Positions 12,398 through 40,869 of a stretch of 64,000 nucleotides of DNA are shown piece after piece. Under the pieces are notes generated by a model. The model saw only the letters and a program-made list of their open reading frames with translations, did not search any database and was not told the origin of the DNA. The DNA is taken from contig NC_014963.1 of the NCBI RefSeq assembly GCF_000179915.2, positions 1,798,001 through 1,862,000 of the forward strand. The letters run 5' to 3'. Positions within the stretch are counted from its first letter, which is position 1; the number at the start of each line of letters is the position of its first letter. The stretch comes from Terriglobus saanensis SP1PR4 (GTDB lineage: Bacteria; Acidobacteriota; Terriglobia; Terriglobales; Acidobacteriaceae). The translations under genes were made by a program, and so were the position numbers.

Positions 12398-12413
12398 ATA
12401 CAACACTCCTATC

Positions 12414-12432
12414 CAGAAATGTTGCACTTGGA
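12414..12432. repeat. IS30 terminal inverted repeat, right
   Basis: On the minus strand reads TCCAAGTGCAACATTTCTGG, matching the left end in 12 consecutive terminal bases. It lies just upstream of the transposase ribosome site. Confidence 0.8.
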
Positions 12433-25900: not shown

Positions 25901-28126
25901 AACAGCAGCATCTTCACTCTCGTCGCAACGAACGCCTCTGGAGCCTCAACCTCCTTAGGCGCAAAGCTGACGGTCAACTCTCCCGCTCCTACGGGCCCGA
26001 ACTTGGCACTGAATCAACCGGCTACTTCAAGCGCTGACGAGAACGCTCAGCTTGGACCAGCTAATGCCGTAGACGGCGACACAACCACTCGCTGGTCGTC
26101 GGCATTTTTCGACAAAGAATGGCTCCAGATAGATCTCGGCTCGCTAAAGACGATCGCGCAGGTCGTGATCGACTGGCAGAACTCCTTCGGAAAGGCCTAC
26201 CAGATCCAGGTCTCGACAGATCTGCAGACCTGGACAACCGTCTATACCCAATCCAACGGCAACGGTGGAACGGAAAACATCACCTTCCCCTCCGCAAACG
26301 GACGCTATGTTCGTATGTTAGGAGTAACTCGCTCGTCGCCATACGGATACTCGATTTATGAGTTCCAGGTTTACGGTGTAGGGGGGACCAATGTAGGGAG
26401 CGCTCCAACTATCACTACAGAACCTGCCAACCAGACGGCGAATGTCGGCAGCACTGCGACTTTCTCCGTGGTTGCCGCTGGCACAGGTCCCTTCACCTAC
26501 CAGTGGCTGAAGGGCACCACCCCGATCACAGGTGCTACTGCAGCCAGCTACACGACTCCCCTTCTCGCAGCAACCGACAATAGTAACCTGTACAGCGTCG
26601 TCGTCAGCAATGCGAATGGAACCATCACTTCAAATCCCCCAGCAACTCTTACCGTCAACAACGTAGGGAATGCTCCAACTATCTCCACGGAACCTGCCAA
26701 CCAGACGGCGACTGTTGGCGGCACTGCGACCTTCACCGTGGTCGCCGCTGGCACAGGTCCCTTCACCTACCAATGGCTGAAGGGAACCACTCCTATCACG
26801 GGTGCCACTGCAGCCAGCTACACGACTCCCGTTCTCGCTGCGAGTGACAACGGCAACCAGTACAGCGTTATCGTTGGCAATGCGAATGGAACCATTACTT
26901 CAAATCCCCCAGCAACTCTTACCGTCAATACCGGTCCGAACTATCCGATTTTTCCGGGCTTTGTCGGTGTCGATCTGCAAAACAACACCAAGGGAACTTG
27001 GACGGATGGACAGATCTTTGTCACTGTCATAGGAAGGGATGCCGCGAACAATAATGCTTTCGCTTATCTGACTTCAGACGGCACGGTCATTGACTTCACT
27101 CTCAATGACGGTGCTGACCCCAATCACCTCACCAAGAATGGTAAGAACTATGGCAATTACTCCTTCTCGCTGGCACAAACCAAGCTACTGAAGATTCCCA
27201 CGTTGGTCTCGGCTCGCGCATTCATCTCACTTGGCGAACCCCTTTACATTCAAATTAATCCGGACCCTAATAACCCGACACAGGTCGTGGGCTACGCAGG
27301 CCCTAGCCGTACCAATGCAACCGATCCCAACTTTAATACTCCCCTTGACTGGTATGAATTCGATAATGAAACCCTGATGGACATCAACACGACCCAAGTG
27401 GACCGGTTCGGCCTACCTCTAACGCTTGACGTCTGGAGTGCCGGAGGTACCTCGCACCAGCGGATCGGCATCACTGAATCCATCGCACAGCTCGATGCGG
27501 AATTCGCCACTGAAGTACCGGCGGAGTTCCAACCACCCACGATGAACAACCTCAATATCCTTTCGCCAGCCAGCCTTGGCATGCCTATGGCGGCGGACGG
27601 AGCAAATGCTCACTATTTCGACAATGTGATTGCAACTGCATGGAAGTCCTACGCAACCAGTCCAATCACGATCACCGTCAGCGGTCGCCAATTCAAAGGT
27701 ACTGCAGTCGCTTCGACCTTGACCTTTACGGAAGTCAATCCCAGTGCAAGCCATGCTGGCGAGACCTTCGTGGTGCAACAACCTTCCACCCAGGAGGTAT
27801 TCCTATGCAACGGCAGCATGAATGAAGGAGTCGACATGAGTAATGGTTCAACCCCGGCCCTCCAGGATGAAGACGCTGTGCAGAGACAGTTGCAAAACCA
27901 GGTCTGCTCGGCGACGAATCGGGGTGTTCTCTCCAACCCAGCCAACTGGGCTAATGCTTCGACCTACTACAGTACATCGCCAGCACCGGCCAATTATTAT
28001 TCGGCATTCTGGCATAGACACTCCATTGATGGGTTGGCATACGGCTTTGCTTATGACGACAACAATAATCAGAGCGGCTCAATTAACGTAAAAGCGGAGC
28101 ACATGGTTTTTGGGATTGGTTGGTAA
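19979..28126 (+). CDS. Giant secreted multimodular glycosidase: GH2-type + Ig/F5-8C modules + GH64
   Basis: 2715 residues. A signal segment (FFCLLALIFLLPLQALIAQ) is followed by a GH2 jelly-roll, Ig-like and TIM-barrel domain (about 50-650; candidate acid/base E485 in AYEADNG, nucleophile E565 or E566 in WGAEEWG). Ig-like modules lie near 907-1167, 1436-1522, 1691-1777, 1916-2000 and 2141-2318. Four F5/8C (CBM32) modules sit near 1171-1309, 1563-1690, 1786-1914 and 2007-2134. A DUF1566/Lcl-like insert (about 1310-1437) and a Gly/Pro linker near 1523-1561 are also present. The C-terminal 395 residues look like GH64 beta-1,3-glucanase with E2460 and D2475 spaced as in laminaripentaose-producing enzymes. 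GTG 19979 is used; TTG 20027 with GAGG upstream may be the true start. Confidence 0.85.
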   Translation: MALRIDIRNTTIEVRPLKQCDRDFRIFFCLLALIFLLPLQALIAQGTVLAPSERVVINMGHQPWKFESGQDPAGAQNNSFNDASWQSVGLPTSADELFTFTNETSGGGAGDSNGNPAWYRQHFTVGTQYSNRKVQVVFGGVNTGAQVYINGNLIPGTQAFAPQATHVEGFLPFICDLTPYINFGGDNVIAVRAARNANWFPDIGFAGGFRFDMGDLGIFRNVMMYITDKIYIPENVYSGSKLWGTYLATDAASDDSATIHIQTNVMNESGTPQDVTLTTQIVDANGNVVATRQDDQIITASTHANPLPVMFDQVLTVNKPTLWYPNNSIYGGPYLYKVFHTVSMNGVVIDSKQSMLGIRTVMWDQNFVYVNGKVQKLNGAGARYNYPGVESSMSEEQKWRDLQQFAAMGGNLWRPGHASEGDEFINAADALGVMLVDPSGDGENGFSDPCGPTAKMTCDQEALKLELHRDMIIRDRSHASVLAYEADNGVTLPAFAQQVAAVGKQWDFLGSDGPIGGPFGGRPQSDRSGGDPQYENNGDFLSCSGEGCEIGVKQSVPGKPVWGAEEWGPGSLSYDHDHEISMAAKYIDSWSKGLDSKIMGFAQWYFADSTGEEGQYVEPDIDANHNIERGIGDSMVDFERHPRLLYYIEKANWRPFRDAAGKIYKPVVKLANTWNRTGTIQVNAWSNCPSVRLLINGVQQGQDQIPNPSSSRADNDSDFVATELTTKLAAQAHWTVNWQSGTAVAACMDESGAVVNDPVTGTPVTDTLTTAGTPYQIVLEPVPNVTRPDGTTFQVTANGSDFELINAKVVDENGILVPDATNLLTFSVSGNATYVGGTVQLVDPTQPHSYHAPGDPNLPAEGGLQTILVKSQFNPGAVTVTATSPNLKSATASFNIFPIPQQTPSATAPAIIAEPVNTSVTRGFSAHFSVTATGAGPLQYQWFKGGVQIPSAMGTTFDTPPTTDGDDQAVYSVTVSNSLGSAPSTNAVLTVVAPAAPVITTQPLSQAIDAGGSVTFSVVATGSPTLSYQWTDNTVPIPGAITSTYTLQTSDTTENGHVFAVLIKNPVTTIQSNPAILTVNPARPPVVTTDPANVVALPGQIASFTVVATGSQPLTYVWTNQNTGLKVGGNSPILTIESVSNSSLGSYIVTVSNSAGMAQSKAATLSLAPPGVNMSLGKTASASSFEDPVGLAAKFGIDGDTTTRWGSNFSNPATAVPQFFVIDYGVSMTFNRSKITWDSSFATAYDMEVSSDGTDWGAPFHVQTAGTGQVEDFTFPTQTARYLRLFATERNDQYGISIHELATYNGAACGDRKEHWTLNPSVSTLVLDNLSGLTWKNTPKTTDNSADGQFTQVSAINYCQTLGMRIPTKDEALAISGSSGPSCAFPTFWATWTSTDDPVDATRAVIIDSTGGVSAGIKDNSPGSTLCVLGDVQTVPVITTQPAPTTVEANQAATFSVAATTSGNALATYTWLKNGVAFQVTGVPTVTTPLITADDNNALYSVTVTGGNGLTATSNTALLTVNGTAPPPTGGGGGGTGGGTAPPPPCGNATACTGNGNGPAPVGPNLALNKTATSSADESGSFPAKNGVDGNFNTRWSSAFFDTESYEVDLGLVQPIGQALIRWQDSYGKSYVIETSSDENTWTTAFTQNNGLGGVDNLTFPTVNARYIRMRGLTRATHYGYSFWEFEVYGPVLPTIITQPVSQSVVVGATAQFTVVTDGKVPCTYQWFRDGVIIPGATSATYTTLALALADTNSSFSVIVSNGSASVPSSSALLTVTDPVTPTVGIANLALGKPVTSSSNENNNLGPLNAVDGDLTTRWSSGHTDTEWLEVDLGSPMLTSKVMIYWEAAYGKAYEIQVSNDEQAWTTVAKQNEGKGGVETVPLLSTVNRYIRFFGLTRATTYGYSFYEFQVYGADVPVISTQPTSQTVISGKSATFTAAATGTGLISLQWNRNGVPISGATGTSYTTPIATSQDNSSIFTLVATNASGASTSLGAKLTVNSPAPTGPNLALNQPATSSADENAQLGPANAVDGDTTTRWSSAFFDKEWLQIDLGSLKTIAQVVIDWQNSFGKAYQIQVSTDLQTWTTVYTQSNGNGGTENITFPSANGRYVRMLGVTRSSPYGYSIYEFQVYGVGGTNVGSAPTITTEPANQTANVGSTATFSVVAAGTGPFTYQWLKGTTPITGATAASYTTPLLAATDNSNLYSVVVSNANGTITSNPPATLTVNNVGNAPTISTEPANQTATVGGTATFTVVAAGTGPFTYQWLKGTTPITGATAASYTTPVLAASDNGNQYSVIVGNANGTITSNPPATLTVNTGPNYPIFPGFVGVDLQNNTKGTWTDGQIFVTVIGRDAANNNAFAYLTSDGTVIDFTLNDGADPNHLTKNGKNYGNYSFSLAQTKLLKIPTLVSARAFISLGEPLYIQINPDPNNPTQVVGYAGPSRTNATDPNFNTPLDWYEFDNETLMDINTTQVDRFGLPLTLDVWSAGGTSHQRIGITESIAQLDAEFATEVPAEFQPPTMNNLNILSPASLGMPMAADGANAHYFDNVIATAWKSYATSPITITVSGRQFKGTAVASTLTFTEVNPSASHAGETFVVQQPSTQEVFLCNGSMNEGVDMSNGSTPALQDEDAVQRQLQNQVCSATNRGVLSNPANWANASTYYSTSPAPANYYSAFWHRHSIDGLAYGFAYDDNNNQSGSINVKAEHMVFGIGW
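26391..26930 (+). repeat. Tandem duplication of an Ig-module coding unit
   Basis: Two copies of a 270-bp unit (26391-26660 and 26661-26930), both starting AAYGTAGGGARYGCTCCAAC and highly similar throughout. Each encodes a 90-residue Ig-like module just before the GH64 domain. Confidence 0.85.
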
Positions 28127-28524: not shown

Positions 28525-29874
28525 TTAAGGTTGCTTGTTTACGAAAATTACGCGGAGGTCTCGAATGTTATTTCCTGAAGGGCCCGGATCCACCGTATCT
28601 CCCAGCGCTTCAAACAATGGATAGGCGTTGAAGGATTCGAGTGCATTTTGCGGATTCATTCCTGCCCGCAGCGCACGCTGCCATGTTGAGCCGTCGACAA
28701 CGGCCCCTGCGGCGGGACTGTTTCCATCAATCCCATCCGAACCAACGCTCATCGCGACAAAGTTCGACTGACCGTCGATCAACTGAGCGACCCGAAGCGC
28801 CCACTGCTGGTTGCGTCCGCCAAGACCAGCCTGCCCTTTGATAGAAACCGTCACCTCGCCGGCGGAGAGGATACAGAGCGGAATCGATGCAACGGATTCC
28901 TCGCGTGCCCGCTCCACAAGATATTTCGCGGCATCGCTGTAATCCCAGTCATCGCAGGTATTGTCGACGATGACGCGATATCCAGCGGTGGAGACCAGTT
29001 GTATGGCTTCCTCGATCAGTGAGTCGCTCGACAACAATGAGAGACTGGTCGAAGGTAAGCGCCCCTCAGGAAGAGTCTTGGGCGTCTCAGGCATTTGCTC
29101 TAAAAACCGCGCCATCGCCTCGGGAACAGGTGCAAGCAATGGCGTTTCTGCGAGGATACGCCGAACCTCTTCCACGGTGCTGGTATCCGCAAGCGACGGG
29201 CCCGAGCCCACAATGTCGAGCCTTCCCGGTGGAACATCCGAGATAAGAACCGTGCATCGCGTCGCCGCACCTGCCGCGAGCGCCAGACGACCGCCTTTGA
29301 TCGCGGAGAAGTGTTTGCGCAGAACGTTTGTCTTGCCGATTGCAAGTCCGGAATGAAGCAGTCGTCTATAGAATGCGGACAGATCCTCTGAACTGATGGA
29401 AGCATCGAGCGGAGCTTCTGCCATGGCGGAGGCTCCACCACTTATGAGATAGAGAACCAGGGTGTCTTCGTCGGCCGTTTGCATCAACTGAAGAAGTTCA
29501 TGCGCCGCGACGAATGAATTTCTTCCCGGCACGGGATGGTCACCCCGCAACGAGAGAATTCCGGGGGGTGCAGCCCATGTACCGAGCCCAACCACCACCC
29601 CCGTCAACGGAAGTGCATCGCCAAGCGTTTGAATAGCGTGCTCCGCCATAGGTACAGAAGCTTTGCCGATCGAGACAAGAAAAATGCGTTTGAACAGACG
29701 CAGATCGAAACGGTCCTCGCCTACACGAAGTTCGCTTCCTTCCAGGACGAAAGAGTCGCGCATGCTCCGCGGCACGTTCACCCGTAACATCACTTGGGTG
29801 AAAAGCCACTGAGCATAGCCTTTCGGGTTCTGTTGCCTTGGCGCGATCTCTTCTCTATCTAGGAACGGTGGCAC
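28525..29874 (-). CDS. Glycerate 2-kinase (GckA/MOFRL type)
   Basis: 449 residues. The N-terminal DUF4147 domain contains LVSIGKASVPMAEHA, GDHPVPGRNSFVAAHEL and LYLISGGASAMAEAP. The C-terminal MOFRL domain has LSAGEVTVSIKGQAGLGGRN and SVGSDGIDGNSPAAGAVVDG. The enzyme phosphorylates D-glycerate to 2-phosphoglycerate, feeding glycolysis. It is the last gene of the minus-strand locus, 12 bases after the TIM-barrel gene. Start GTG 29874 has GAGGG upstream. Together with the reductase at 37225 it gives a route from tartronate semialdehyde to central metabolism. Confidence 0.92.
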   Translation of the reverse strand: MPPFLDREEIAPRQQNPKGYAQWLFTQVMLRVNVPRSMRDSFVLEGSELRVGEDRFDLRLFKRIFLVSIGKASVPMAEHAIQTLGDALPLTGVVVGLGTWAAPPGILSLRGDHPVPGRNSFVAAHELLQLMQTADEDTLVLYLISGGASAMAEAPLDASISSEDLSAFYRRLLHSGLAIGKTNVLRKHFSAIKGGRLALAAGAATRCTVLISDVPPGRLDIVGSGPSLADTSTVEEVRRILAETPLLAPVPEAMARFLEQMPETPKTLPEGRLPSTSLSLLSSDSLIEEAIQLVSTAGYRVIVDNTCDDWDYSDAAKYLVERAREESVASIPLCILSAGEVTVSIKGQAGLGGRNQQWALRVAQLIDGQSNFVAMSVGSDGIDGNSPAAGAVVDGSTWQRALRAGMNPQNALESFNAYPLFEALGDTVDPGPSGNNIRDLRVIFVNKQP

Positions 29875-29886
29875 GCTTTATTCCCT

Positions 29887-31371
29887 CTAGACCAGTTTCA
29901 GTGCGCGCACCGCCTCACCGGCGGCCCGCAAGTTGGCCAGCTTCATCTCAGAATACTTGCGTGACAGAATTACGCCATCTGCCCCGCCATGAAATGCAGC
30001 CTCGACCACTTGTCTTGTGATGTCAGGAGTGCTCTTCGCGCTTCCTTGCGCAGTAGGAATATCGATGTCGATCCCAGGCCACAGCTTCGTCTTTGCACCG
30101 GCCAGGCCCTCCCTGGCGCGCTTGGTCTCTCGCAGGACGTAGTCGGCGGAAAATCCTCTGGCTGCAAGTTGCTTCATATCCGCTTCCGGGCCGTAATCAA
30201 GGACGCGGTAGTGAAAGTCGAGCAGTTCCTGCTTCGGCACATCCGCAAAGTAAGTCGACCCCACCGAATTAACATAGTCCACCATGCGCTCCCCGGCGCA
30301 GTTCTGATAGATCACGACCTTCAGAAAGTCGGAATATGGCGCCATCTCGGCATAGTCCTGTTCCGCACGATAGATCGGGTTGAAGGAGTTGTTATGCCAT
30401 ACGTGCCAACCCACGCCCATATTCGGCTTGATGGATTTGATCTTGTCGTAGATCGCCTTCTGCGTCTCGCGCAGACTGCGCGTCCACAGGGACTCCCATG
30501 CCAGAAGCTCCGGGTAACGCAGCATCAGGCGCCACAGCATGACGTAGTAGCCGTCGGAAGGACGAACGCCCTTGCGCGATGCGGTAACGAACCTCTCCAG
30601 CTCCTCGAAGCCCTTCCTCGCACGATCCGGATTGATCCCCTCCGCTTTGGCTCTTGCAACAGTGTGTTCAGAAAAATCACAGACGCTGGAGAGGGCAGGA
30701 TGAGAATGGCTTGCGCCAAGAGCATTCGAAAGTGGGCCCTGGCGTTCCGATCCCCACATGATGCCATCGAGATCGTAGTTGCGCGTCCAGTTCTCCACCA
30801 TGCCGAGAATCCATGCACGATGCTCCGGCGCATTGAAGTTCATGCTGCCGATCTTTTCACCCTGCAGGTTTACATCCTGCATTGGCTTGATACCGGGAAG
30901 GTCCTTGCCCATCACATCTTCAAACCAGGCAATTGTCTTGACACCATGCTTCTTCGCTTTTGGGATCACATCTTCCAGGACGTCATAGTTACCAAGGTCG
31001 GGCGCGCGAAAATCCTTCAGTGTCGTGTCGGCAAAGTACTTTTTGTCGTAGTTCGTGTAGCAACCGCCGACGAAGGTGTCTTTGTCATACTGTTGTTTGC
31101 CGTGGTCGGGCAGCGGCTGCCCCGGCACCTGGCGTCCACCAATGCCGCGGCCGTACGTAAACGTTGCGACAAAGAGTGTGTCCACAAACGCATCGCGCTG
31201 ACACTCTTCGATGACTGCATCCGTGCCTTCATCTGTGAAAGACACCGCGCCAATCTGAATTCCGATCATCTTCTTGGGTTTGCGCACAGCAGGGTTCAGT
31301 GCGATGGCGGGTGCCGCGGCGGCCGTCATCGCCGCGCCGGCTGCTGTCTGAAGAAACTCTCTACGATCCAT
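29887..31371 (-). CDS. Tat-exported TIM-barrel protein, copy A (glycoside-hydrolase-like, function unknown)
   Basis: 494 residues from ATG 31371. The twin-arginine signal MDRREFLQTAAGAAMTAAAA directs folded export. The body resembles glycoside-hydrolase-like (GHL) TIM barrels: IGIQIGAVSFTDEGTD, then WTRNYDLDGIMWGSERQGPL with candidate acidic residues, then MGVGWHVWHNNSFNPIYRAE. It ends SRKYSEMKLANLRAAGEAVR. It is paralogous along its whole length to the protein at 32305-33819, but lacks that copy's CFCQFCQ cluster. No substrate can be named. It lies 25 bases downstream of the DUF6282-like gene. Confidence 0.75.
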   Translation of the reverse strand: MDRREFLQTAAGAAMTAAAAPAIALNPAVRKPKKMIGIQIGAVSFTDEGTDAVIEECQRDAFVDTLFVATFTYGRGIGGRQVPGQPLPDHGKQQYDKDTFVGGCYTNYDKKYFADTTLKDFRAPDLGNYDVLEDVIPKAKKHGVKTIAWFEDVMGKDLPGIKPMQDVNLQGEKIGSMNFNAPEHRAWILGMVENWTRNYDLDGIMWGSERQGPLSNALGASHSHPALSSVCDFSEHTVARAKAEGINPDRARKGFEELERFVTASRKGVRPSDGYYVMLWRLMLRYPELLAWESLWTRSLRETQKAIYDKIKSIKPNMGVGWHVWHNNSFNPIYRAEQDYAEMAPYSDFLKVVIYQNCAGERMVDYVNSVGSTYFADVPKQELLDFHYRVLDYGPEADMKQLAARGFSADYVLRETKRAREGLAGAKTKLWPGIDIDIPTAQGSAKSTPDITRQVVEAAFHGGADGVILSRKYSEMKLANLRAAGEAVRALKLV

Positions 31372-31396
31372 GTTTGATTTCCTTTGTATGTAAGAA

Positions 31397-32305
31397 CTAT
31401 TTGAGGTCAAGAACCGTTGCCGGATTGCTTCGAGCCATGGTGTCGATCTCCGTCTGTGATACACCCGCCTGCAGAAGACCTGCATAAAAACGCTTCAGTC
31501 CTTCGGTATGCACCGGGTTCACCACCTGGCCCAGATCGCTGGAAAGAATAATGTGGTCCGCGCCAACTGCATGAATAGCCTTGGCATAATCCTCGAAGGA
31601 AAATTCTTTGTAGGGGCCGATCAGGCCGTTGTAAACAAACTCCAGATACGCGCCCATGGACGCGGCCTGCTTCATCTGGTCGATGTTCATATGAATCGGT
31701 GCAATCATCGCGTGCGTTACGACAATGTGCTTCACGCCCACGCGATTCGCTTCGCGAATCATTGACAGGATTTCGTCCGGATAGTTATGCCCGGTCTCCA
31801 GTATCAGGTTGTACTTTGCGATGACGGCAATCACCTGCTTCACCTCCGGCAGCAATTCGCCATCCTGGGTTACGGCAACATAGGGACGCTTGTTGGGCCC
31901 CTTCTCGGCTTCAACTGCCGCACGGGAATCAAAGCTCGTCATCCACACCATGCGGCCATAGCCTCCCGAGATGTGCGCCATGTTCTCAACTGCCGCAGCG
32001 TTCATGCCGCCGACGGTGCGATTCAAATCGATACCGCCAAAGACCTCGATGCCCGGTACTACTTTCCGTACGAGATACGCATCATTCGCGGTGGGCACGT
32101 AGTGGTTTTTGAGAACAATCGCCCGCATGCCTTCCGCCTTGGCAAGACGCGCGACATCGATCGCGTCCACGGAACGTGGCAACACGTCCGGGCCACAGTG
32201 CATGTGAATGTCAATTGCTCCGGCCAGAGGCTTCGCGGACGAAGCACCCTGACCGAAGAGAGTACCTGCAACAACCAACATGCTTCCAAGCACAGTAAAT
32301 CGCAT
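31397..32305 (-). CDS. Exported DUF6282-like metal-dependent hydrolase
   Basis: 302 residues with a signal peptide (FTVLGSMLVVAGTLFGQG). The amidohydrolase/PHP-like fold is shown by the metal-site motif DIHMHCGPDVLP, then ILETGHNYPDEI, IVVTHAMIAPIHMN and the late aspartate in ILSSDLGQ. DUF6282 proteins are predicted TIM-barrel metal hydrolases without a known reaction. ATG 32305 overlaps the TAA of the upstream TIM-barrel gene (TAATG), so the two are probably translated together. That coupling suggests a joint step on the same periplasmic substrate. Confidence 0.78.
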   Translation of the reverse strand: MRFTVLGSMLVVAGTLFGQGASSAKPLAGAIDIHMHCGPDVLPRSVDAIDVARLAKAEGMRAIVLKNHYVPTANDAYLVRKVVPGIEVFGGIDLNRTVGGMNAAAVENMAHISGGYGRMVWMTSFDSRAAVEAEKGPNKRPYVAVTQDGELLPEVKQVIAVIAKYNLILETGHNYPDEILSMIREANRVGVKHIVVTHAMIAPIHMNIDQMKQAASMGAYLEFVYNGLIGPYKEFSFEDYAKAIHAVGADHIILSSDLGQVVNPVHTEGLKRFYAGLLQAGVSQTEIDTMARSNPATVLDLK

Positions 32306-33819
32306 TACGAAACCACCTTCATTTCACGTAAAGCATCGCCCACAGCCGCAAGATTCGCCAGCTTCATCTCGGAGTACTTCCGCGAGATCACAAGCCCCTT
32401 CCCACCCGCATCAAAGCAAGCCTTGGTGCAGGCCTTGATCTCCGGAGGAGCCGTATGACTGTATTCAACATTCATATTCGAGATATCGACGTCGAGTCCC
32501 GGCCAGATCTCCGTCTGCGTTCCAGCAACATCTTCCACGGACCGTTTCGTCTCGTGATAAACATAGCTCGAATCGAGTCCCACAAACGGCAACTCCGTAT
32601 AGCTGCGGCCGCGATAGCCCATAATGTTGTACTCAAACTCCAGGGCGTTCTCTATCGACATATCACCATAGATCGTCTTGCTGGCGCTGGTGATATACGT
32701 TTCCATGCGTGTGCCCCCAAGATTGTCATACACCGTCATCTTCAAAAAGTCGGTATACGGACTGATCTTTTTCAGATCAGTCTGTGCTCGGAAAAACGGG
32801 CTGAAGCTGTGTGCATGCCACACGTGCCAACCCACCTCCATCTTCGGATTCACGCTTTTCACAACGTCGTAGATCGCCTTGTACGTCTCGTGCACGCCAT
32901 CGTTCCACATGGTCTCCCACGCAAGAATCTCCGGATATTCAAACAACACGCGCCAGAACGTAACGTAATGTCCATCCGGCGGGTTTCCGCCGCCGCGGCA
33001 GAAGCGAACCCACTTCTCAAGCTCCTTGTAACCCTGCATTGCGCGTTGCACGTTGATGCCGCGCCCGGCAGCAGCCTTCTGGCAGAACTGGCAGAAGCAA
33101 GTCACACGGGAAGGATCGTTTCCGTCGCGCTGATGCACGGATTCGATCATGTTGCCGAACGGGCCGTAACGCTCCGAACCCCACATCACGCCGTCGATCT
33201 CATACGAATGCGTCCAGTCCTGAAAGGTCGCCATGAGGAATGCATGATGATCGGGATTGCGAAAGCAAGCGGTCTTTGCCGGACGGCCGTAAAGATCACG
33301 CTCTGCAATTAACTCAAAGTTCGGCACCTTGGTATTCCACACGTCCTCACTCCACGTGTAGGTCTTCATACCGCGCTTCTTCGCCTTTGGAATCGCGTCC
33401 GCCAGCACGTCATAACTGCCCGCGTCCGGAGCGCGATGCGGCACCATCTTGGTGTTCTTGAAATACTCCGCATGCGGCGTGGTGTAGAAGCCACCAAAGA
33501 AGTTGTCTTCTTTCTGCACGCCATGATCTGGAAACGGATGGCCCGGCAGCTGACGCCCGGCAATGCCGTTGCCGTAGGTGAAGCAGGCGATGAAGAGCGC
33601 ATTGCAGGCGCCTTTTTCCTGCAGAATATCGAGCACCTTATCCGTGCCCTCATCCTGGAAGGAAATTCCCCCAATCTGAATCCCAATCGTGGGAACCTTC
33701 TTCTCACTCTGCTGCGCAGGAAGAGCTTCTGCAAGCAACTTGTTACTTACTCCTGAATTTGCGGCCGCCAGTGCTGCGCCCGCGCCTGCGACAAAAGTAC
33801 GTCGGTCCATGTTGGCCAT
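32305..33819 (-). CDS. Tat-exported TIM-barrel protein, copy B (glycoside-hydrolase-like, function unknown)
   Basis: 504 residues. ATG 33819 follows AAGGAG and begins a Tat signal (MDRRTFVAGAGAALAAAN). It is aligned end to end with copy A: IGIQIGGISFQDEGTD, WTHSYEIDGVMWGSERYGPF, MEVGWHVWHAHSFSPFFRAQ and SRKYSEMKLANLAAVGDALR. It also carries CFCQFCQ near residue 235, a cysteine pattern seen at substrate sites of several glycosidase-like TIM barrels. The function is not known. Gene order is TonB receptor, copy B, DUF6282, copy A, glycerate kinase, with gaps of at most 25 bases. Confidence 0.75.
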   Translation of the reverse strand: MANMDRRTFVAGAGAALAAANSGVSNKLLAEALPAQQSEKKVPTIGIQIGGISFQDEGTDKVLDILQEKGACNALFIACFTYGNGIAGRQLPGHPFPDHGVQKEDNFFGGFYTTPHAEYFKNTKMVPHRAPDAGSYDVLADAIPKAKKRGMKTYTWSEDVWNTKVPNFELIAERDLYGRPAKTACFRNPDHHAFLMATFQDWTHSYEIDGVMWGSERYGPFGNMIESVHQRDGNDPSRVTCFCQFCQKAAAGRGINVQRAMQGYKELEKWVRFCRGGGNPPDGHYVTFWRVLFEYPEILAWETMWNDGVHETYKAIYDVVKSVNPKMEVGWHVWHAHSFSPFFRAQTDLKKISPYTDFLKMTVYDNLGGTRMETYITSASKTIYGDMSIENALEFEYNIMGYRGRSYTELPFVGLDSSYVYHETKRSVEDVAGTQTEIWPGLDVDISNMNVEYSHTAPPEIKACTKACFDAGGKGLVISRKYSEMKLANLAAVGDALREMKVVS

Positions 33820-33831
33820 TCTTTCTCCTTA

Positions 33832-36800
33832 CTAAAAATTGATCTTGAGCGCTATTTGTAGTGTGCGTGCAGCATTCAACGTCGAGTTCACAATGCCGGC
33901 GGAATTAGAACCAATCGAAGCGTTCGGATTGGTGAAGGTTGGGTGGTTGGCGACATTGAATGCTTCAAAACGAAATTCGGCATTGGCCGCCTCGTGAATG
34001 GGAAAGGTCTTCTTAAGAGTCATATCCAACTGCACCAGGCCGTCGCCAGTAAGAATATTGCGGCCAGAATTGCCGAAGGTGAATGCCGTAGGGCTGCTGA
34101 AGACTGAGGGATCGAACCAGCGCTGCGGCGTAGGGTTACCCACGGCGCCCGCAAATGCGCCGGGAGCACGATTTGGGAACTGACCGCTCGTACCGTTGTT
34201 GGCCACATCGCTGGAAAGTACCGGGGTGAAAGGTAAGCCGCTGCGAGCCGTATAGATGCCTGCGATCTCCCATCCGCTGACCACCTGATTGACGACGCCG
34301 GTTGCATTGCTGAGGAAATAGTGGCCGTGGCCCACAGGGAAGGAATACACCGAACTAATCGTCAGAACGTGCATTAGGTTGTGATCGCACGGCGCGTAGT
34401 AGCGGGAGAGCTGCCCAAGAGACTGCGGCCCAGATTCGCTCGACCCGTTGTCGAGACACCGGCTCCACGCATACGAACCCAATAACTGGAAGCCGTTGCT
34501 ATAACGCTTCTCCGCTTTGACCTGCAGTGCGTTGTAGTTGGCCGATCCATAGGTATTGCCAAGATTGAATACACCCCACTGCGGGAACGGTCGCCGATTT
34601 TGAATGCTGCCGGCACCGGGATTCGGAACGTTGTCCGGCGTTGAAATCAGCTGGTTGTGTTTGGTGTTGTTGCCGACATATGCCACCTCGAGCGACAGGT
34701 TATTCATGAGCTGATGCTGAATCGCCAGGTTGTACTGGTGCATGTACGTATGCTTCATATCGATCGGCGAAGTCCAGATGGCTGGCTGCAGGCATGAAAG
34801 ATACGCGACCGTCGTACCCGGGCATGCCACGCCCGGATTTGGGTTTGCCGAAACAAGAGGTTGGCCGTTGAATGGATTTTGAAAGGTAAACGGCGGTGTG
34901 GTCTTGCTGGACGTGTTCACGGTCTGCACGACTTCAAACGGAGGAGCCTTGACCCACTGCAGCGACATGTTTGAATCGAAGTAAATCGGGAACAGGCCAT
35001 ACGCTGCACGGATCACTGTCTTGTCGCTATTTCCGACGCGATAGGCGAGACCAACGCGCGGAGCGAAGACGCCAGGACCGGTTCTATGAATGGACTGCGG
35101 CAGGTGCAGCGACTCGGAGCTAAGCAGCCGATCGCTGAAGAGCGGAATCAACTGGGGCATCACTGGCTGGGCATTCGGATTGATCAGCATACCGCCGTTG
35201 TGTGTTGGCACCACGAGCTTGCCTGTGCTGTAGTCAATGGCATTGGCTTGGCCATTTAATCCGTCGTAAAACGGATCGTGTTCATAGCGGAGACCCATAT
35301 TCAAGGTCAGGTCCGGGCGAGGACGCCAGTTATCCTGCGCAAAGAATGCCAGCCAATTTCCAGTGCTGCCGTAGAGATCCAGCGGATAAGCGCGCGTTAC
35401 AGCGGCCGGATAACCCAACAGAAAATCGGAGAAGGCATCCCCCGTGTAGTTGGTGGTGAAGGAGAAGCTACCCTCCTGGTTCTGACCGTTGAAGAAGGTA
35501 TGGCGCTGATGAAGAACCTGCACGCCCGCGGAGATTTCATGCCCACCCGAGGTGTAGCTCACGGTGTCGGCATATTGCCAGGTGCGGATGCGGTTAGACT
35601 TCGGCAAATTATTAACGCCGGAGCCATTGAATGGCGTGTATCCAGTGAGCGTGATGTACGGGAAGCTCGGTGTAATTTGCGACAGTTCGAAGCCGGTAAT
35701 GCCCGCGCCTGCAAGGAAGTTCGTTCCAGGTAAAACAGCTCCGAACAGGAAAATATCTTTGTACAGCCCAAACTTCGCTTCATTCAGCCACTTCCCTCCG
35801 AAGGTATGGGATTCGGTCAGTGCGATATTCTGCGCACGGCTATTGAGCGACTGGATTCCGAGAGCCTGGAACGCATTCGGATCCTGCTCATCGTTGTCCG
35901 CGATCGAGTATCTGGCCATCCAGTGGTCTCGTGTCCCCATCGCCCAATCGACCTTGCCATCACCCTTCATAATGAGCAGCTTCTGCGGCGCACTGAAGTT
36001 TGCCTGCGACTGCGTGGGCATGAACTTGAGGAAAAAAGCGGCCTGCGGAGAGATGGGCACTTGATCGTTCGTAAAGCGGAGGCCAGTTGCAGGATTGATC
36101 GGCTTCTTCGCTGCGGCGCTGAAGTCGCCCTTGCGCATCGCGTCCGTGGGCACAATGTTGGCATAGGTGATGCCCTGGCTCTGACGCGTCTCTTCAAAAT
36201 CCGAGAAGAAGAACAGCTTGTCTTTGATGATGGGGCCACCGACTACGCCACCAAATTGGTGACGCTTCAGAATGTTCTTGTTGGTGCGCGCAAAGTAGTT
36301 GTGCGCGTCGGCCGCGTCGTTACGCAGGAACTCAAAGACAGTTCCGTGAAAGCTGTTGGTACCGCTCTTCATCGTTGCCGCAACGACGTTAGGCGTGTTG
36401 CCATACGATGCCGGCATGTTGGCGCCTAGCACCTTGAACTCTGCCAGCGAATCGACGTTGGGCTGCACATTTGTTCCGCCCTGTTCATATTCAGTGATGT
36501 CGACGCCATCCAGAGACCATCCATTGAAGATGAAACCGGTACCATTGATCTGCACCGCAACCGAGGACGAACGTAGCGATCCACCGCCGGTGCGCGTGCC
36601 TTGTCCGCCAGGCGTGTACGTGGCACCGGGTGTAAGCGCAACGAGATTCCAGAACTGACGGCCATTCAGAGCGACCGCTTCGATCGATTTGCCTTCGACC
36701 ACCTGGCCCACCGAGCTGTCCTGTGAATTGATGATGGGGACAGCCGTCGTGACCGTCACCTGTTCGCTCACTGCGCCGGCAACCAGCATTACATCCAGAG

Positions 36801-37110
36801 CCGCTGCCTGTGCAGTCTGCAGAGTGATCTTCGGAACGACCGACACTTTGAAGCCGTTTGCCCTGGTCGAAACCGTGTAGTCTCCGACTGGCAGATCTAC
36901 AACCGCGTAAGAACCCGATTCACTGGTCGTGGTTGTGTACTTCTGATGCGTTGCGATCGCTTCGACTGTTACCGTCGCATTCGGAATGAATGCACCCGAA
37001 GCATCGCGGACGAATCCGGACAACGTTGCGTTGGACGACTGTGCCAACATCAGCGCAGAGGAAAGAAATATCACTAGGAAAGGGGCTGCAAGTTTGCGAA
37101 AAAAAGACAT
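33832..37110 (-). CDS. TonB-dependent receptor with carboxypeptidase-regulatory-like N-domain (locus 1)
   Basis: 1092 residues. ATG 37110 follows GGAGAC and starts a signal peptide (FFRKLAAPFLVIFLSSALML). A CarboxypepD_reg-like Ig domain (NATLSGFVRDASGAFIPNAT) is followed by a plug (ALNGRQFWNLVALTPGA, SLDGVDITEYEQGGTNVQPN, ATMKSGTNSFHGTVFEF). A long beta-barrel ends in TLQIALKINF. This is the Oar-like receptor type expanded in Acidobacteria. Its place in the tartronate-semialdehyde locus suggests uptake of the compound that the downstream exported enzymes act on. The frame is open to 37200, but the signal peptide favours 37110. Confidence 0.88.
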   Translation of the reverse strand: MSFFRKLAAPFLVIFLSSALMLAQSSNATLSGFVRDASGAFIPNATVTVEAIATHQKYTTTTSESGSYAVVDLPVGDYTVSTRANGFKVSVVPKITLQTAQAAALDVMLVAGAVSEQVTVTTAVPIINSQDSSVGQVVEGKSIEAVALNGRQFWNLVALTPGATYTPGGQGTRTGGGSLRSSSVAVQINGTGFIFNGWSLDGVDITEYEQGGTNVQPNVDSLAEFKVLGANMPASYGNTPNVVAATMKSGTNSFHGTVFEFLRNDAADAHNYFARTNKNILKRHQFGGVVGGPIIKDKLFFFSDFEETRQSQGITYANIVPTDAMRKGDFSAAAKKPINPATGLRFTNDQVPISPQAAFFLKFMPTQSQANFSAPQKLLIMKGDGKVDWAMGTRDHWMARYSIADNDEQDPNAFQALGIQSLNSRAQNIALTESHTFGGKWLNEAKFGLYKDIFLFGAVLPGTNFLAGAGITGFELSQITPSFPYITLTGYTPFNGSGVNNLPKSNRIRTWQYADTVSYTSGGHEISAGVQVLHQRHTFFNGQNQEGSFSFTTNYTGDAFSDFLLGYPAAVTRAYPLDLYGSTGNWLAFFAQDNWRPRPDLTLNMGLRYEHDPFYDGLNGQANAIDYSTGKLVVPTHNGGMLINPNAQPVMPQLIPLFSDRLLSSESLHLPQSIHRTGPGVFAPRVGLAYRVGNSDKTVIRAAYGLFPIYFDSNMSLQWVKAPPFEVVQTVNTSSKTTPPFTFQNPFNGQPLVSANPNPGVACPGTTVAYLSCLQPAIWTSPIDMKHTYMHQYNLAIQHQLMNNLSLEVAYVGNNTKHNQLISTPDNVPNPGAGSIQNRRPFPQWGVFNLGNTYGSANYNALQVKAEKRYSNGFQLLGSYAWSRCLDNGSSESGPQSLGQLSRYYAPCDHNLMHVLTISSVYSFPVGHGHYFLSNATGVVNQVVSGWEIAGIYTARSGLPFTPVLSSDVANNGTSGQFPNRAPGAFAGAVGNPTPQRWFDPSVFSSPTAFTFGNSGRNILTGDGLVQLDMTLKKTFPIHEAANAEFRFEAFNVANHPTFTNPNASIGSNSAGIVNSTLNAARTLQIALKINF

Positions 37111-37224
37111 AGGAGTCTCCGGGTGCTCCGAGTTGGAGCCGCGTTGGTGATGAATAACTTTCAAATACAATGAAACGCGGATGCGGCGGTGCTCAAACAT
37201 CCGATCTGCTGCGAACCATACCTC

Positions 37225-38139
37225 TTAGCCGGCGCGATTACGATGCGCCGGATCACTTACTTCCACTCGCGCCAATCCTTCAAGCACTTTGATGGAGGCG
37301 CAAATATCTTCTTCGCCATAACCCGCAGCTATGGCGGTGCGCAGCATCTGCGCGGACAATGCCGTGAGCGGAGTTGGAACGCCAAGCTCGCCCGCTGACT
37401 CCAGCATGAGCTGCATGTCCTTCTCAAGCCACTTCACGGAAAAGTGCGTAGCAAAATTCCGGGCAAACACCAGCGGAGCCTTCGCTGCAACCAGTCCCGA
37501 CTTTGCCGCGCTGTTATTCAGGATGTCGAGCATCAGCTCAGGCTCAATCCCTGCCTTTGTGCTCAAAACAAAAGATTCGTTGAAGGCATTGATCAGGTTG
37601 CCGATGATTAAGTTCTGAGAAAGCTTCGCGTGCAGCCCCATGCCGTTCGCACCACAGTAGTAGAGGTTCGGGCCCATGGTTAAGCAGAAAGGCTTCACCC
37701 GTTCAAAGACGTCCTTGTCGCCGCCTACCATGAAGGTGAGATTGCCACTCTCGGCGCCATTCTTTGATCCAGTCACAGGAGCATCGAGTAACTCAATACC
37801 GCGTGTGCGCAACTCTTCTGCCATCTGCTTACTCGCGCTTGGGGAGATGCTGCTGCAATCCACGACGACACTTCCAGGCCGTGCACCAGCCGCGATTCCG
37901 TCCGCGCCAAAAATCGTGTTGCGCGACATCGCCGTATCCCCCACGCAGAGGAAGACGACCTCGCTTCGCTGCGCAACTTCGGCTGGAGTCGCCGCGATCG
38001 TCGCCGCGCCCGACGCCTTCAGCTTCTCTGCCTTGCCCGGAGTGATCGACCACAGCGTAACCCCATGTCCGGCCTCAAGCAGATGCCGGGCCATAGGCAT
38101 GCCCATGATTCCCAATCCGATAAATCCCAGCTTCGCCAT
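37225..38139 (-). CDS. NAD(P)-dependent beta-hydroxyacid dehydrogenase (tartronate semialdehyde reductase-like)
   Basis: 304 residues. The N-terminal Rossmann motif is GFIGLGIMGMPMARHLL, followed by the substrate motif DAPVTGSKNGAESGNLTFMV and the catalytic lysine region GLHAKLSQNLI. The C-terminal helices are typical of 3-hydroxyisobutyrate dehydrogenase relatives. GarR/GlxR enzymes in this group reduce tartronate semialdehyde to D-glycerate. The glycerate kinase at the other end of the locus supports that choice, although glyoxylate/succinic-semialdehyde reductases share the same motifs. Confidence 0.85.
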   Translation of the reverse strand: MAKLGFIGLGIMGMPMARHLLEAGHGVTLWSITPGKAEKLKASGAATIAATPAEVAQRSEVVFLCVGDTAMSRNTIFGADGIAAGARPGSVVVDCSSISPSASKQMAEELRTRGIELLDAPVTGSKNGAESGNLTFMVGGDKDVFERVKPFCLTMGPNLYYCGANGMGLHAKLSQNLIIGNLINAFNESFVLSTKAGIEPELMLDILNNSAAKSGLVAAKAPLVFARNFATHFSVKWLEKDMQLMLESAGELGVPTPLTALSAQMLRTAIAAGYGEEDICASIKVLEGLARVEVSDPAHRNRAG

Positions 38140-38157
38140 AAGACTGAATCCTTTGCC

Positions 38158-39810
38158 TCAGAAGTGAAGGTAGTGCGTGTACAGCAATGCGATAAGACCC
38201 ACGATGGCGGCAAGAAGAACGCTGTGCTTCAGCATCAGCCGAAACAACCTTGACTGATCCGCGTTGCTCATCCCAGTCGCTGCCGCCGCGACCACGATCG
38301 TTTGCAGACTGATCATCTTTCCAACCACGCCGCCCGATGAATTTGCCGCAGACATCAAAACAGGACTAAGACCCAGACGCTCTGCGGTGACAACCTGCAG
38401 ACTTCCAAAAAGGGCATTCGCAGAAGTGTCCGAGCCTGTAAGAAAGACGCCGACCCACCCGAGCAACGCGCTGAAAAATGGAAACACCGCGCCGCTCGAA
38501 GAAAACGCAAGCCCCAGCGTTGCGGTGGCTCCGGAATAGTTCATAAGAAAAGCCATCGCTAGTACGGAGACCACCGTAGTAATCGGCACGAGCAACTGCC
38601 TGCACGTTGAGCCAAGAACCCCCAGGAACGTGGACAAAGAAACCCGCAGGAAGAGCGCACTACAGATGGCTGCGCACATGCAGGATGTTCCCGACGCGGA
38701 CAGAAGATTCAGTACGAAGTACGCATGGTACGGTTGCGCGTTCGCAACGACGGGAGCCATGCGCATCACCCGATCATGCAACATCGGCCATTGCAGGTTG
38801 AAGGTGCCCACAGACAGCAGATGTTGAATCGGCTTCACGCTCCAAAGTAGGACGAATACAACGAGGAATGCATACGGCATCCACGCGACCACGATCTCCT
38901 GCGTCGACGCGACCAGGAGATCTGAACCATCCGCCGGTGGGGCAACCGCCTCGCTGGAACCGCGGAACGCCGCTTCGAGATCGCGCGGCATGGGTTCGCT
39001 TTTGCGGAAACGACAGAGAACAAAGAGCGCAACCATCGCGAAGATGGACGCAAGGATGTCCGTCAACTGCGGACCCATGTAAGTACCAACCACAAACTGT
39101 GTTCCGCCAAACACGAAGCCCGTAATCACACAGGGAAGCAACGCCGCGCGCAGCGTTCTCTTCCCACCCATCACAAACACCATGTAGGCCGGAATGATTA
39201 GTGCGACCGGTGCGCAGATGGCTGCAACCGCCGCACTCAGCTTCAATAGCGGAAGACCGGTCGTCGCGGCGAGTGTCAACAGCGGCGTTCCGATCGAACC
39301 GAACGCGACGGGAGCTGTATTTGCGAGCAGACAGATGGCAGAAGCACGGAAGGGCGAGAAGCCAAGGCCCGTAAGCATGGCGGCCGCGATGGCGACCGGC
39401 GTTCCGAAACCCGCTGCCCCTTCAATGAACGCGCTGAAAGCGAAAGCGATGAGCAGGGCCTGCGAAGGTGCGTCTTCCGTAAGCTGTCCGACCGACTCGC
39501 GAATGATGGTGAACTTACCCGTAACGGTCGTGATGCGAAAAAGAACGATCGCCCAGAATACGATCCAGCAAATCGGAAAGAGACCGAAGGCCGCACCGTA
39601 GGAGACTGCACCAAACGCCAGCGAAACCGGCATGTGATAGCAGAAGAGGGCAACCACTAAGCTCACCGCAAGGCCACAGAGTCCGGCCACCCACGCGGGT
39701 TTACGCAGCACACCCAGCATCACCAGCACAGCCAGGATGGGCAGTGCCGCGATCGCGGCGGATACCCCGATACCCTGACCAAAAACGCGATATGCCTGCT
39801 GCCAATTCAC
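38158..39810 (-). CDS. lctP: L-lactate permease family transporter (lactate/glycolate-type)
   Basis: 550 residues with twelve or more membrane segments. Family hallmarks are AFIEGAAGFGTPVAIAAAML, NTAPVAFGSIGTPLLTL and VGVFLTGSDTSANALFGSLQ. LctP proteins import L-lactate and glycolate with protons; glycerate is conceivable here. I choose GTG 39810 because it follows GAGGCGG and yields the family opening (NWQQAYRV); GTG 39834 lacks a ribosome site. First gene of the minus-strand locus, with a FadR-type operator in its promoter, so 2- or 3-carbon hydroxyacids are the likely substrates. Confidence 0.9.
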   Translation of the reverse strand: MNWQQAYRVFGQGIGVSAAIAALPILAVLVMLGVLRKPAWVAGLCGLAVSLVVALFCYHMPVSLAFGAVSYGAAFGLFPICWIVFWAIVLFRITTVTGKFTIIRESVGQLTEDAPSQALLIAFAFSAFIEGAAGFGTPVAIAAAMLTGLGFSPFRASAICLLANTAPVAFGSIGTPLLTLAATTGLPLLKLSAAVAAICAPVALIIPAYMVFVMGGKRTLRAALLPCVITGFVFGGTQFVVGTYMGPQLTDILASIFAMVALFVLCRFRKSEPMPRDLEAAFRGSSEAVAPPADGSDLLVASTQEIVVAWMPYAFLVVFVLLWSVKPIQHLLSVGTFNLQWPMLHDRVMRMAPVVANAQPYHAYFVLNLLSASGTSCMCAAICSALFLRVSLSTFLGVLGSTCRQLLVPITTVVSVLAMAFLMNYSGATATLGLAFSSSGAVFPFFSALLGWVGVFLTGSDTSANALFGSLQVVTAERLGLSPVLMSAANSSGGVVGKMISLQTIVVAAAATGMSNADQSRLFRLMLKHSVLLAAIVGLIALLYTHYLHF

Positions 39811-39899
39811 CTTGTTCCGCCTCGCTTCTGCCACTAAAGCAATCAGCTACGAATTGTCCATTAGGGAACAAGTACATAGGACTTTTCGAAAGCGGGAGG

Positions 39900-39929
39900 A
39901 TGGTATGTTGGTCTGACCAATTGTGTCAA
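39900..39929 (-). promoter_or_regulatory. lctP promoter with embedded FadR/GntR operator
   Basis: On the minus strand: -35 TTGACA (39929-39924), 18-bp spacer, -10 TACCAT (39905-39900). The spacer contains the perfect inverted repeat TTGGTC-T-GACCAA (39908-39920), the TGGTC...GACCA pattern bound by FadR-family proteins. Binding there would block polymerase. Confidence 0.72.
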
Positions 39930-40041
39930 GACGGCTTTTCCATTTTATTTTCTACTACCCGGTCGCTGGATCTTGATCCCCAGCCAAATCGGAGCTTCCA
40001 ACGATTTGAACTGCATGATAGCTTTCAACTTTGCCACGAAA

Positions 40042-40054
40042 TTGGCCTGACCAT
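40042..40054. promoter_or_regulatory. Second FadR/GntR-like operator
   Basis: TTGGCCTGACCAT matches the palindrome at 39908-39920 in 11 of 13 positions. It lies 60 bases before the regulator's start, suggesting autoregulation. The rest of the roughly 300-bp divergent gap shows no gene. Confidence 0.6.
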
Positions 40055-40113
40055 TTTTTGACCGCCTTGGGAAAGATCTAGGACATTTGGCTGTAGTGAT
40101 AAGGTGACCAGAG

Positions 40114-40869
40114 ATGCGAAAACAGAATGCACCAGACACGACGCTCCAGGAGAAGACCGCCCTTAAAACACGGCCTGTTCAGAAGAACTCGATAAGCGAT
40201 GAGATTGTCCAGCAGATCATGAAACAGATCTCGAGTGGCAGTCTGAGGCCGGGCCAACGTCTCCCTTCGGAACGGGAGTTGTGCAAGCAATTCAACGCTG
40301 GCCGTTCCTCCCTTCGCGAGGCGCTGCGCTGCCTCTCCATCATGGGTGTACTCACTGCGCGCGTCGGCGAAGGAACCTCGGTCGCCACGGACGGCAGCAA
40401 ATTTCTGAACACGATTATGAAGTGGCGCGTCATCACGGAGCGCTATGACGTTCGCGACCTGATGGAAGTGCGCCTGGCGATGGAAGGCCTTTCTGCAGCG
40501 AGCGCCGCCGAGCGCGCAACCGACGCTGAACTTGCGGCGATCTCAGAGTTCGTGGTGCGCATGCACGATGCGGTAGGAGATGCGAAGCGATTCAGCTCTC
40601 TTGATCTTGAATTTCATCTTGCGATCTCACGCGCATCAAAGAACCTCGCGATGGTGGACATGCTTACCATGATTCGCAGCCAGCTCCCGCGCGTCGTATC
40701 CACGGTGCTCAAGCTCCCTGATGCGCGGCCACTCTCACTCAAAGAGCACGAAACCATCATTAAGGCCCTGCTGAAGCGCGACCCGGAGGGAGCCCGTAAG
40801 GCCATGCAGGTCCATCTGAGCTCTGCAATTAAACGTTACGACTCCACACAGCCAAAGGTTATGTATTGA
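40114..40869 (+). CDS. FadR/GntR-family (FCD) transcriptional regulator
   Basis: 251 residues. The N-terminal winged helix contains IVQQIMKQISSGSLRPGQRL, PSERELCKQFNAGRSSLREA and LRCLSIMGVLTARVGEGTSV. The C-terminal FCD helical domain (RYDVRDLMEVRLAMEGLSAA, then DLEFHLAISRASKN) binds small carboxylates in relatives such as LldR, GlcC and PdhR. Divergent from lctP with two matching operators between them, it is almost certainly the local regulator. The inducer is probably a hydroxyacid of the lactate/glycolate/glycerate type. Confidence 0.92.
   Translation: MRKQNAPDTTLQEKTALKTRPVQKNSISDEIVQQIMKQISSGSLRPGQRLPSERELCKQFNAGRSSLREALRCLSIMGVLTARVGEGTSVATDGSKFLNTIMKWRVITERYDVRDLMEVRLAMEGLSAASAAERATDAELAAISEFVVRMHDAVGDAKRFSSLDLEFHLAISRASKNLAMVDMLTMIRSQLPRVVSTVLKLPDARPLSLKEHETIIKALLKRDPEGARKAMQVHLSSAIKRYDSTQPKVMY

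Follow-up and report, generated by a model that had tools for sequence, protein, structure and literature searches.

In a stretch of 64,000 nucleotides from the single-contig genome (5.1 Mb) of Terriglobus saanensis SP1PR4 (NC_014963.1, positions 1,798,001 to 1,862,000; hereafter the window), seven closely packed minus-strand genes were found to encode an LctP-family permease, a beta-hydroxyacid dehydrogenase, a TonB-type receptor, two barrel proteins (TIM-A and TIM-B), a DUF6282 protein and a glycerate kinase. With a probability of roughly 55%, these genes form a repressible scavenging operon, whose exported hydrolases would free a hydroxy- or oxo-acid of C2-C3 size for import by LctP and assimilation by the intracellular enzymes or the kinase. 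The initial annotation of this DNA had described the seven genes and a divergent regulator, and all eight were found by an open reading frame (ORF) check at 28525-39834 and 40114-40869, the regulator being of the GntR/FCD type (Table 1).

Layout and control of the operon

Between 39834 and 28525, neighbouring genes were separated by -1 to 25 nt, the gap in front of the receptor being possibly wider. In particular, the spacing was 18 nt between lctP and the dehydrogenase gene, 24 nt between the latter and the receptor gene (or as much as ~114 nt, should the receptor begin with its signal peptide), 12 nt between the receptor gene and TIM-A, and 12 nt between TIM-B and the kinase gene, while TIM-A and DUF6282 overlapped by 1 nt. 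The longer ORF start of TIM-B would overlap DUF6282; starting at the twin-arginine Met at 31371 removes this overlap and leaves 25 nt between both genes. A 462-aa open frame was also present antisense across TIM-B (29989-31377, plus strand), and nothing supports a gene there.

Sigma-70-like sites were rarer between positions 27900 and 41000 than in shuffled sequences (2 vs. 6.7 ± 2.4), one of the two lying upstream of lctP and the other past the end of the operon. The spacer of the lctP promoter carried the perfect palindrome TTGGTCTGACCAA, with its core TGGTCTGACCA at 39909-39919. Moreover, the block TTGACAC-N-A-N-TGGTCWGACCAAC-N-TACCATCC was common to the window and to locus L118, a distant relative from an Acidobacteria metagenome-assembled genome (MAG), where it stood at position 3019 before the genes TonB-TIM-A-DUF6282-TIM-B, from which the kinase gene of that locus diverged. 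Without mismatches, TTGACA-gap-TGGTCNGACCA matched only twice, in the window and in L118, when the scanned loci and the window were searched on both strands (2.72 million bases).

Genome-wide, the operator palindrome appeared at 8 positions including this one, compared with 4 in a reversed control, and none of the 5 inspected among the 7 other positions stood visibly before related genes, so that a wide regulon was rejected. The longer promoter-operator pattern gave 25 matches in 398 genomes of the family (9 in the reversed control), of which 3 preceded LctP genes (in this genome, L220 and L227) and 1 preceded the L118 operon. Since the remaining matches mostly preceded unrelated genes or TonB genes, TGGTCNGACCA is unspecific to this system. 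In L227 (ZG23-2), the same promoter-operator type was seen around position 1501 before an LctP gene divergent from a gene that by eye resembles LarA. The regulator presented both a GntR helix-turn-helix and an FCD domain, and a palindromic TNGTNNNACNA-type site, to which it is predicted to bind, was present in its own promoter region. Sites of this type are typical of LldR/NanR/GlcC-type FCD regulators. Given that the palindrome also occurs outside this system, what can be inferred is that an FCD repressor of the LldR/NanR type occupies its usual kind of site.

Table 1. Genes and regulatory sites of the operon, with positions in the window.
Feature	Position (strand)	Basis or context
Glycerate 2-kinase family, DUF4147 + MOFRL	28525..29874 (-)	Pfam, 192 and 112 bits
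TIM-B, predicted Tat-exported glycoside-hydrolase-like barrel, GHL10 type	29887..31371 (-)	Weak GHL10 match and fold
DUF6282, predicted metal hydrolase with N-terminal signal-like segment	31397..32305 (-)	PF19799, 218 bits
TIM-A, second predicted Tat-exported barrel, paralogue of TIM-B	32305..33819 (-)	Alignment, 44% identity
TonB-type outer-membrane receptor, CarboxypepD_reg + OMP_b-brl_4	33832..37200 (-)	PF25183, 729.5 bits
Beta-hydroxyacid dehydrogenase, GarR-like at best-hit level, GSK/KxxxN type	37225..38139 (-)	NAD_binding_2 + NAD_binding_11
LctP-family 2-hydroxy-monocarboxylate permease	38158..39834 (-)	Lactate_perm/TIGR00795, 480.7 bits
Operon promoter TTGACA-18-TACCAT	39929-39900 (-)	Upstream of lctP; palindromic operator TTGGTCNGACCAA in spacer
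Second operator-like site TGGCCTGACCA	40043..40053 (+)	1 mismatch; upstream of regulator gene
GntR/FCD regulator, NanR/LldR/GlcC-like, divergent	40114..40869 (+)	Pfam/NCBIfam GntR + FCD

Predicted exported hydrolases

TIM-B matched the GHL10 family weakly (32.1 bits vs. a cut-off of 27.9, covering one third of the profile), and TIM-A matched no Pfam family. The predicted structure of TIM-B (AlphaFold, 52 sequences; mean pLDDT 91.6) had as its nearest solved folds Cwp19 (Z 26.8) and the glycosidase domain of PgaB (Z 25.7), followed by GH42 and GH164 enzymes; the matches to Cwp19 and PgaB reached Z 24-27 over 306-332 residues of the (beta/alpha)8 glycosidase fold. All 52 rows kept a Glu directly behind strand 4 (E209) and an Asp where strand 7 ends (D435), and these are the usual places of the glycosidase residue pair. 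Hence, the two Tat-exported TIM-barrel proteins of the initial annotation can be specified, on the strength of the TIM-B model and the 44% identity of TIM-A to TIM-B, as proteins of a GHL10/GH153-like glycosidase fold, for which glycosidic hydrolysis is predicted. They resemble the GHL10/GH153 glycosidases Cwp19 and PgaB in fold and in the acidic residue after strand 4, but differ from them in the low identity (~12-15%), the Tat-type signal and, for TIM-A, the missing Pfam match. The Cwp19 paper (PMC5765458) discusses the same strand-4 and strand-7 places and reports Gly at the latter for Cwp19, in contrast to the invariant Asp of the TIM barrels.

A search of 150 family genomes recovered relatives of TIM-A in 27. 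In a quick tree, the TIM-A clade comprised 6 rows (SH-aLRT 100), all from loci with tandem TIM genes, and DUF6282 lay between the tandem genes in 5 of these 6 loci, genome G095 being the exception. In that genome, from the same genus, TIM-A and TIM-B were followed by a GH2 gene (L033, 4543-9569). Furthermore, a GHL6-type protein of ~700 aa with a Tat-type start, and with Glyco_hydro_42M where scanned, was encoded next to a TIM homologue at 13 of the 80 loci (L117, L122, L123, L127, L131, L150, L170, L173, L177, L178, L180, L184 and L187), some of these genes having a TonB receptor gene directly in front.

The DUF6282 protein matched PF19799 with 218.1 bits (cut-off 26.8) over positions 1-196 of the 196 of the profile, and the metal-ligand residues (HxH, H173, H198 and D257) were kept in 8/8 rows. 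Its structural model, built from 8 sequences and of moderate confidence (pLDDT 75), matched a PTE homology protein (Z 20.6), the 2-pyrone-4,6-dicarboxylate (PDC) hydrolase 4i6k (Z 19.7) and PTE-like lactonases. The metal hydrolase noted initially was thereby narrowed to the LigI/PTE-like fold of the amidohydrolase superfamily with its HxH, H, H, D ligands, and the best guess for its reaction is a lactonase/esterase-type hydrolysis, as predicted from the model. It shares this fold and ligand set with LigI-type PDC hydrolases and PTE-like lactonases, and differs from them in being a separate Pfam family, in its predicted export and in the lack of an aromatic pathway in the window.

In the phylum, DUF6282 was found in 18 of 297 genomes, and its ORF was located in 15 of the 19 stretches taken. 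Members with a signal segment (51-57% identity; L083, L087, L088 and L089) lay beside other exported proteins and no TIM gene, while members without it (27-37% identical) lay beside LigB-, RraA- and PIG-L-like genes in L084 and L085, as named by sequence reading. A total of 47 plasmid records matched, and most of the 8 inspected had PIG-L, CHA-type aldolase, HpcH-type aldolase, dioxygenase or benzoate-transporter genes as neighbours. Cytosolic DUF6282 genes adjoined those for PIG-L, CHA aldolase and extradiol dioxygenase in L101 (5324-9990), L085 (6653-10209) and L100, including a Thermus oshimai plasmid and an acidobacterial MAG, a further likeness to the LigI-type setting; these cytosolic forms might act as an alternative lactonase for PDC during meta-cleavage of protocatechuate or gallate. 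A search for viral relatives of DUF6282 returned none, and a literature search on the name 'DUF6282' returned no paper.

Small-acid genes and neighbourhoods in relatives

The permease exceeded the TIGR00795 cut-off (480.7 vs. 341.15) and stayed below the LldP and GlcA equivalog cut-offs. The kinase was over the cut-offs for DUF4147 and MOFRL and below that of its NCBIfam equivalog (202 vs. 550), its nearest solved structure being the putative glycerate kinase 2b8n, and it was the only DUF4147 gene in the genome. For the dehydrogenase, the best NCBIfam and PDB matches were GarR/tartronate semialdehyde reductases, so the initial naming holds at the best-hit level; its scores, however, were below both GarR equivalog cut-offs (259 vs. 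397 and 248 vs. 340.75), and both active-site signatures were missing, with GSK and KLSQN in place of the GGE and KLANQ/KVANQ of the tartronate semialdehyde reductases 1vpd and 1yb4. It aligned nearly equally to 1vpd (GarR, 190.7 bits) and to 3pef (187.9 bits), a different beta-hydroxyacid dehydrogenase that carries GSK and KLVVN.

No glyoxylate carboligase was found over the cut-off even genome-wide, extending what had been noted for the window; the best match (315 bits) was rejected as such and read as the large acetolactate synthase subunit of an ilv/leu operon. None of the 9 genomes searched had isocitrate lyase over the cut-off (8 of 14 controls were positive), while malate synthase was present in 8 of 10 genome handles searched (G130 and G427 gave identical matches and look like one genome), including this genome, where it is unlinked to the operon (2011633). 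A glyoxylate shunt was therefore rejected as the reason for malate synthase, and glyoxylate must have another source in those genomes. Not all members of the family have malate synthase: for Acidobacterium capsulatum, neither its gene nor that of isocitrate lyase is reported (PMC11636273). Glycolate oxidase was rejected for this genome, which had no GlcD near the full score (best 102 bits), compared with 486-523 bits in 6 of the 9 genomes searched.

The neighbourhood survey covered 80 named TIM loci, 71 of which kept the TIM gene itself, as the ORF caller takes the longest ORF. Loci in MAGs were cut by contig ends, and the neighbour counts are lower bounds. TIM and DUF6282 genes occurred together in 7 of the 80 loci (L110, L111, L113, L117, L118, L122 and L131); TIM-A was cut by the contig end in L113, and the second TIM was a degenerate ORF of 253-265 aa in L122 and L131, which are close relatives and thus not independent. 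Small-acid genes (LctP, GarR-like, glycerate 2-kinase, malate synthase or SHS-type permease) were found in 6 of these 7 loci vs. 3 of the other 73 (L114, L138 and L175), with a Fisher P-value of 1.9e-6, the loci sharing ancestry and not being independent.

Malate synthase lay beside TIM in 4 of the 80 loci. In L117, genes for an IclR regulator, malate synthase A (TIGR01344, 822 vs. a cut-off of 594.5), a GHL6 protein and an enolase-superfamily protein led directly into TIM-A-DUF6282-TIM-B, whereas in L122 and L131 malate synthase and IclR diverged from LctP-TonB-GHL6-TIM-DUF6282; in L138, which lacks DUF6282, malate synthase lay 46 nt behind TIM. L118, whose regulator, TonB receptor, TIM-A and kinase were 56%, 58%, 60% and 40% identical to those of the window, respectively, had the kinase without the reductase, and its genome gave no malate synthase match. 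An SHS-family permease gene was found beside TIM in L114 and L118. Next to the TIM homologue of L116 (1717-9559) were genes for a glucuronate isomerase and a nickel-pincer hexonate epimerase (NF052594, 635 bits), together with a tagaturonate-epimerase-like gene, an SDR and a polygalacturonase-like gene, neighbours hinting at uronate-rich substrates. In L111 (559-3833), from an Edaphobacter MAG, the TonB receptor was split into two ORFs by a frameshift or an assembly error.

Gene order was conserved in relatives, as had been asked of the system: dw_441 presented GarR-TonB-TIM-A-DUF6282-TIM-B in the order of the window, and in the Edaphobacter MAG RYN_7 one contig ended in FCD|LctP-GarR (residues 1-151) and a second started with the rest of GarR followed by TonB-TIM-A-DUF6282-TIM-B, consistent with that order. 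Separate promoters or a broken order had been named as refuting a single system, and, as far as can be read from the DNA, the window presents neither.

The intracellular end, described as clear in the initial annotation, is only partly supported as such, because the reductase signatures are missing and relatives use malate synthase (L117, L122, L131 and L138) or the kinase only (L118). Where isocitrate lyase is lacking, malate synthase beside the barrels speaks for glyoxylate or glycolate, while the operon kinase suggests glycerate. Because of this kinase, a C3 end is likely in the window organism; tartronate semialdehyde is not established, and the relatives argue for C2. The earlier idea of exported hydrolases combined with small-acid uptake and assimilation in one operon was thus supported, with the likely acid shifted to glyoxylate/glycolate or glycerate.

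Competing explanations and significance

According to the preferred explanation, the TonB-type receptor would bring a glycoside- or lactone-containing compound across the outer membrane, and in the periplasm TIM-A and TIM-B, as GHL10/GH153-like glycosidases, and DUF6282, most likely as a lactonase or esterase, would cut it. A C2-C3 hydroxy- or oxo-monocarboxylate at the level of glyoxylate, glycolate, glycerate or tartronate semialdehyde would be freed and taken up by LctP. In the window organism, the dehydrogenase and the sole glycerate 2-kinase would pass it to 2-phosphoglycerate, and in other lineages malate synthase, or the kinase alone, would handle it. The FCD regulator would repress the operon and itself via the TTGGTCNGACCAA operator, and its binding of the acid or of a product would end this repression.

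This explanation is favoured by the compact operon with one upstream promoter, the promoter-operator common to L118, the enrichment of small-acid genes at DUF6282 loci, malate synthase and the SHS permease beside TIM, GH2 beside the tandem of G095, the 13 GHL6 loci, the invariant E209 and D435, and the PTE/lactonase fold. Several observations weigh against it. The called start of DUF6282 in L118 lacks a clear signal segment; G095 keeps TIM-A and TIM-B without DUF6282 (Pfam search of the genome) and without an LctP match; LctP, GarR and the kinase are each missing from most of the 7 DUF6282 loci, and most TIM homologues lie far from them. Moreover, malate synthase (glyoxylate) and glycerate kinase (C3) indicate different acids, and identities of 8-19% in Foldseek/VIA mean that the folds do not reveal substrates.

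The competitor that survives best, although improbable on balance, takes glyoxylate or glycolate as the imported acid and malate synthase as the main sink, the GSK-type dehydrogenase serving as a glyoxylate reductase safety valve. It accommodates malate synthase A in or divergent from the operons of L117, L122 and L131 and close behind TIM in L138, the lack of isocitrate lyase, the malate synthase of this genome and the GlcA-like permease family; but it leaves the glycerate kinase unexplained, makes glycolate a dead end here for want of a GlcD near the full score, and does not suit the genome of L118. An unlikely alternative is the import of tartronate semialdehyde or hydroxypyruvate, which a genuine tartronate semialdehyde reductase would reduce to glycerate ahead of phosphorylation, an alternative for which the best matches of the dehydrogenase, the single kinase in the same operon and the absence of Gcl over the cut-off would speak; however, the GarR score and signatures, the nearly equal score of 3pef, the kinase without reductase in L118 and the malate synthase replacing it in L117, L122 and L131 count against it. 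Least probable are two systems side by side, with a lactate/glycerate-type uptake set (lctP, dehydrogenase, kinase and FCD) captured before an unrelated exported glycosidase set (TonB, TIM-A, DUF6282 and TIM-B): similar operators do precede LctP homologues that have LarA-like neighbours or stand alone (L227 and L220), LctP is found together with a kinase at another place in G130, and most TIM loci lack acid genes, but acid genes are enriched beside DUF6282 with different enzymes each time, the operator is shared with L118, and dw_441 and RYN_7 keep the same order.

Beyond the scavenging operon itself, it is conceivable, though doubtful, that the barrels and DUF6282 constitute an undescribed route for the extracytoplasmic release of glyoxylate (or tartronate semialdehyde or glycerate) from carbohydrate, such as an oxidised sugar acid or a hydroxyacid glycoside or lactone. 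As parent substrates, allantoin, ascorbate, apiose, sialic acid and N-glycolyl peptidoglycan, as well as a retro-aldol release from keto-uronates, were weighed by reasoning only and found no support.

Elsewhere in the window, an exported-looking protein of 2715 aa (19979-28126, plus strand), convergent with the operon, combined a GH2 module and a GH64 beta-1,3-glucanase domain with Ig-like repeats and four F5/8 type C domains, and a 369-aa protein (11318-12427, minus strand) resembled by eye an IS30-type transposase.

Among known systems, the operon resembles TonB-receptor/glycosidase utilisation loci in its receptor with a CarboxypepD_reg plug, its exported glycosidase-like enzymes and its local regulator, as well as in the GH2, GH38 and GHL6 genes beside the loci of relatives. 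In contrast, no SusD was among the operon families found, import is assigned to a permease for small acids in place of one for sugars, and the intracellular enzymes are predicted to act on C2-C3 acids. The glyoxylate-to-glycerate branch is encoded by gcl-hyi-glxR-glxK and garR-garK. A beta-hydroxyacid dehydrogenase and a glycerate 2-kinase are shared with it, whereas here there is no Gcl over the cut-off and no aldolase, the kinase is of the MOFRL type, the reductase is non-canonical and exported hydrolases belong to the operon. No description of a comparable operon was found in the portions available of the literature on its enzyme families and on Acidobacteria metabolism.

The operon would thus work like a TonB-glycosidase utilisation locus with a small-acid end. 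It gives a context to three unassigned protein groups in Acidobacteriota, common in soil: DUF6282, Tat-exported GHL10-like barrels and the GHL6 proteins partnered with them. Moreover, it raises the question of where glyoxylate comes from in genomes with malate synthase and without isocitrate lyase, and the shared promoter-operator offers a handle for finding the substrate. If the undescribed route were true, it would provide Acidobacteriota lacking isocitrate lyase with an income of glyoxylate or glycerate, to be used by malate synthase or glycerate kinase.

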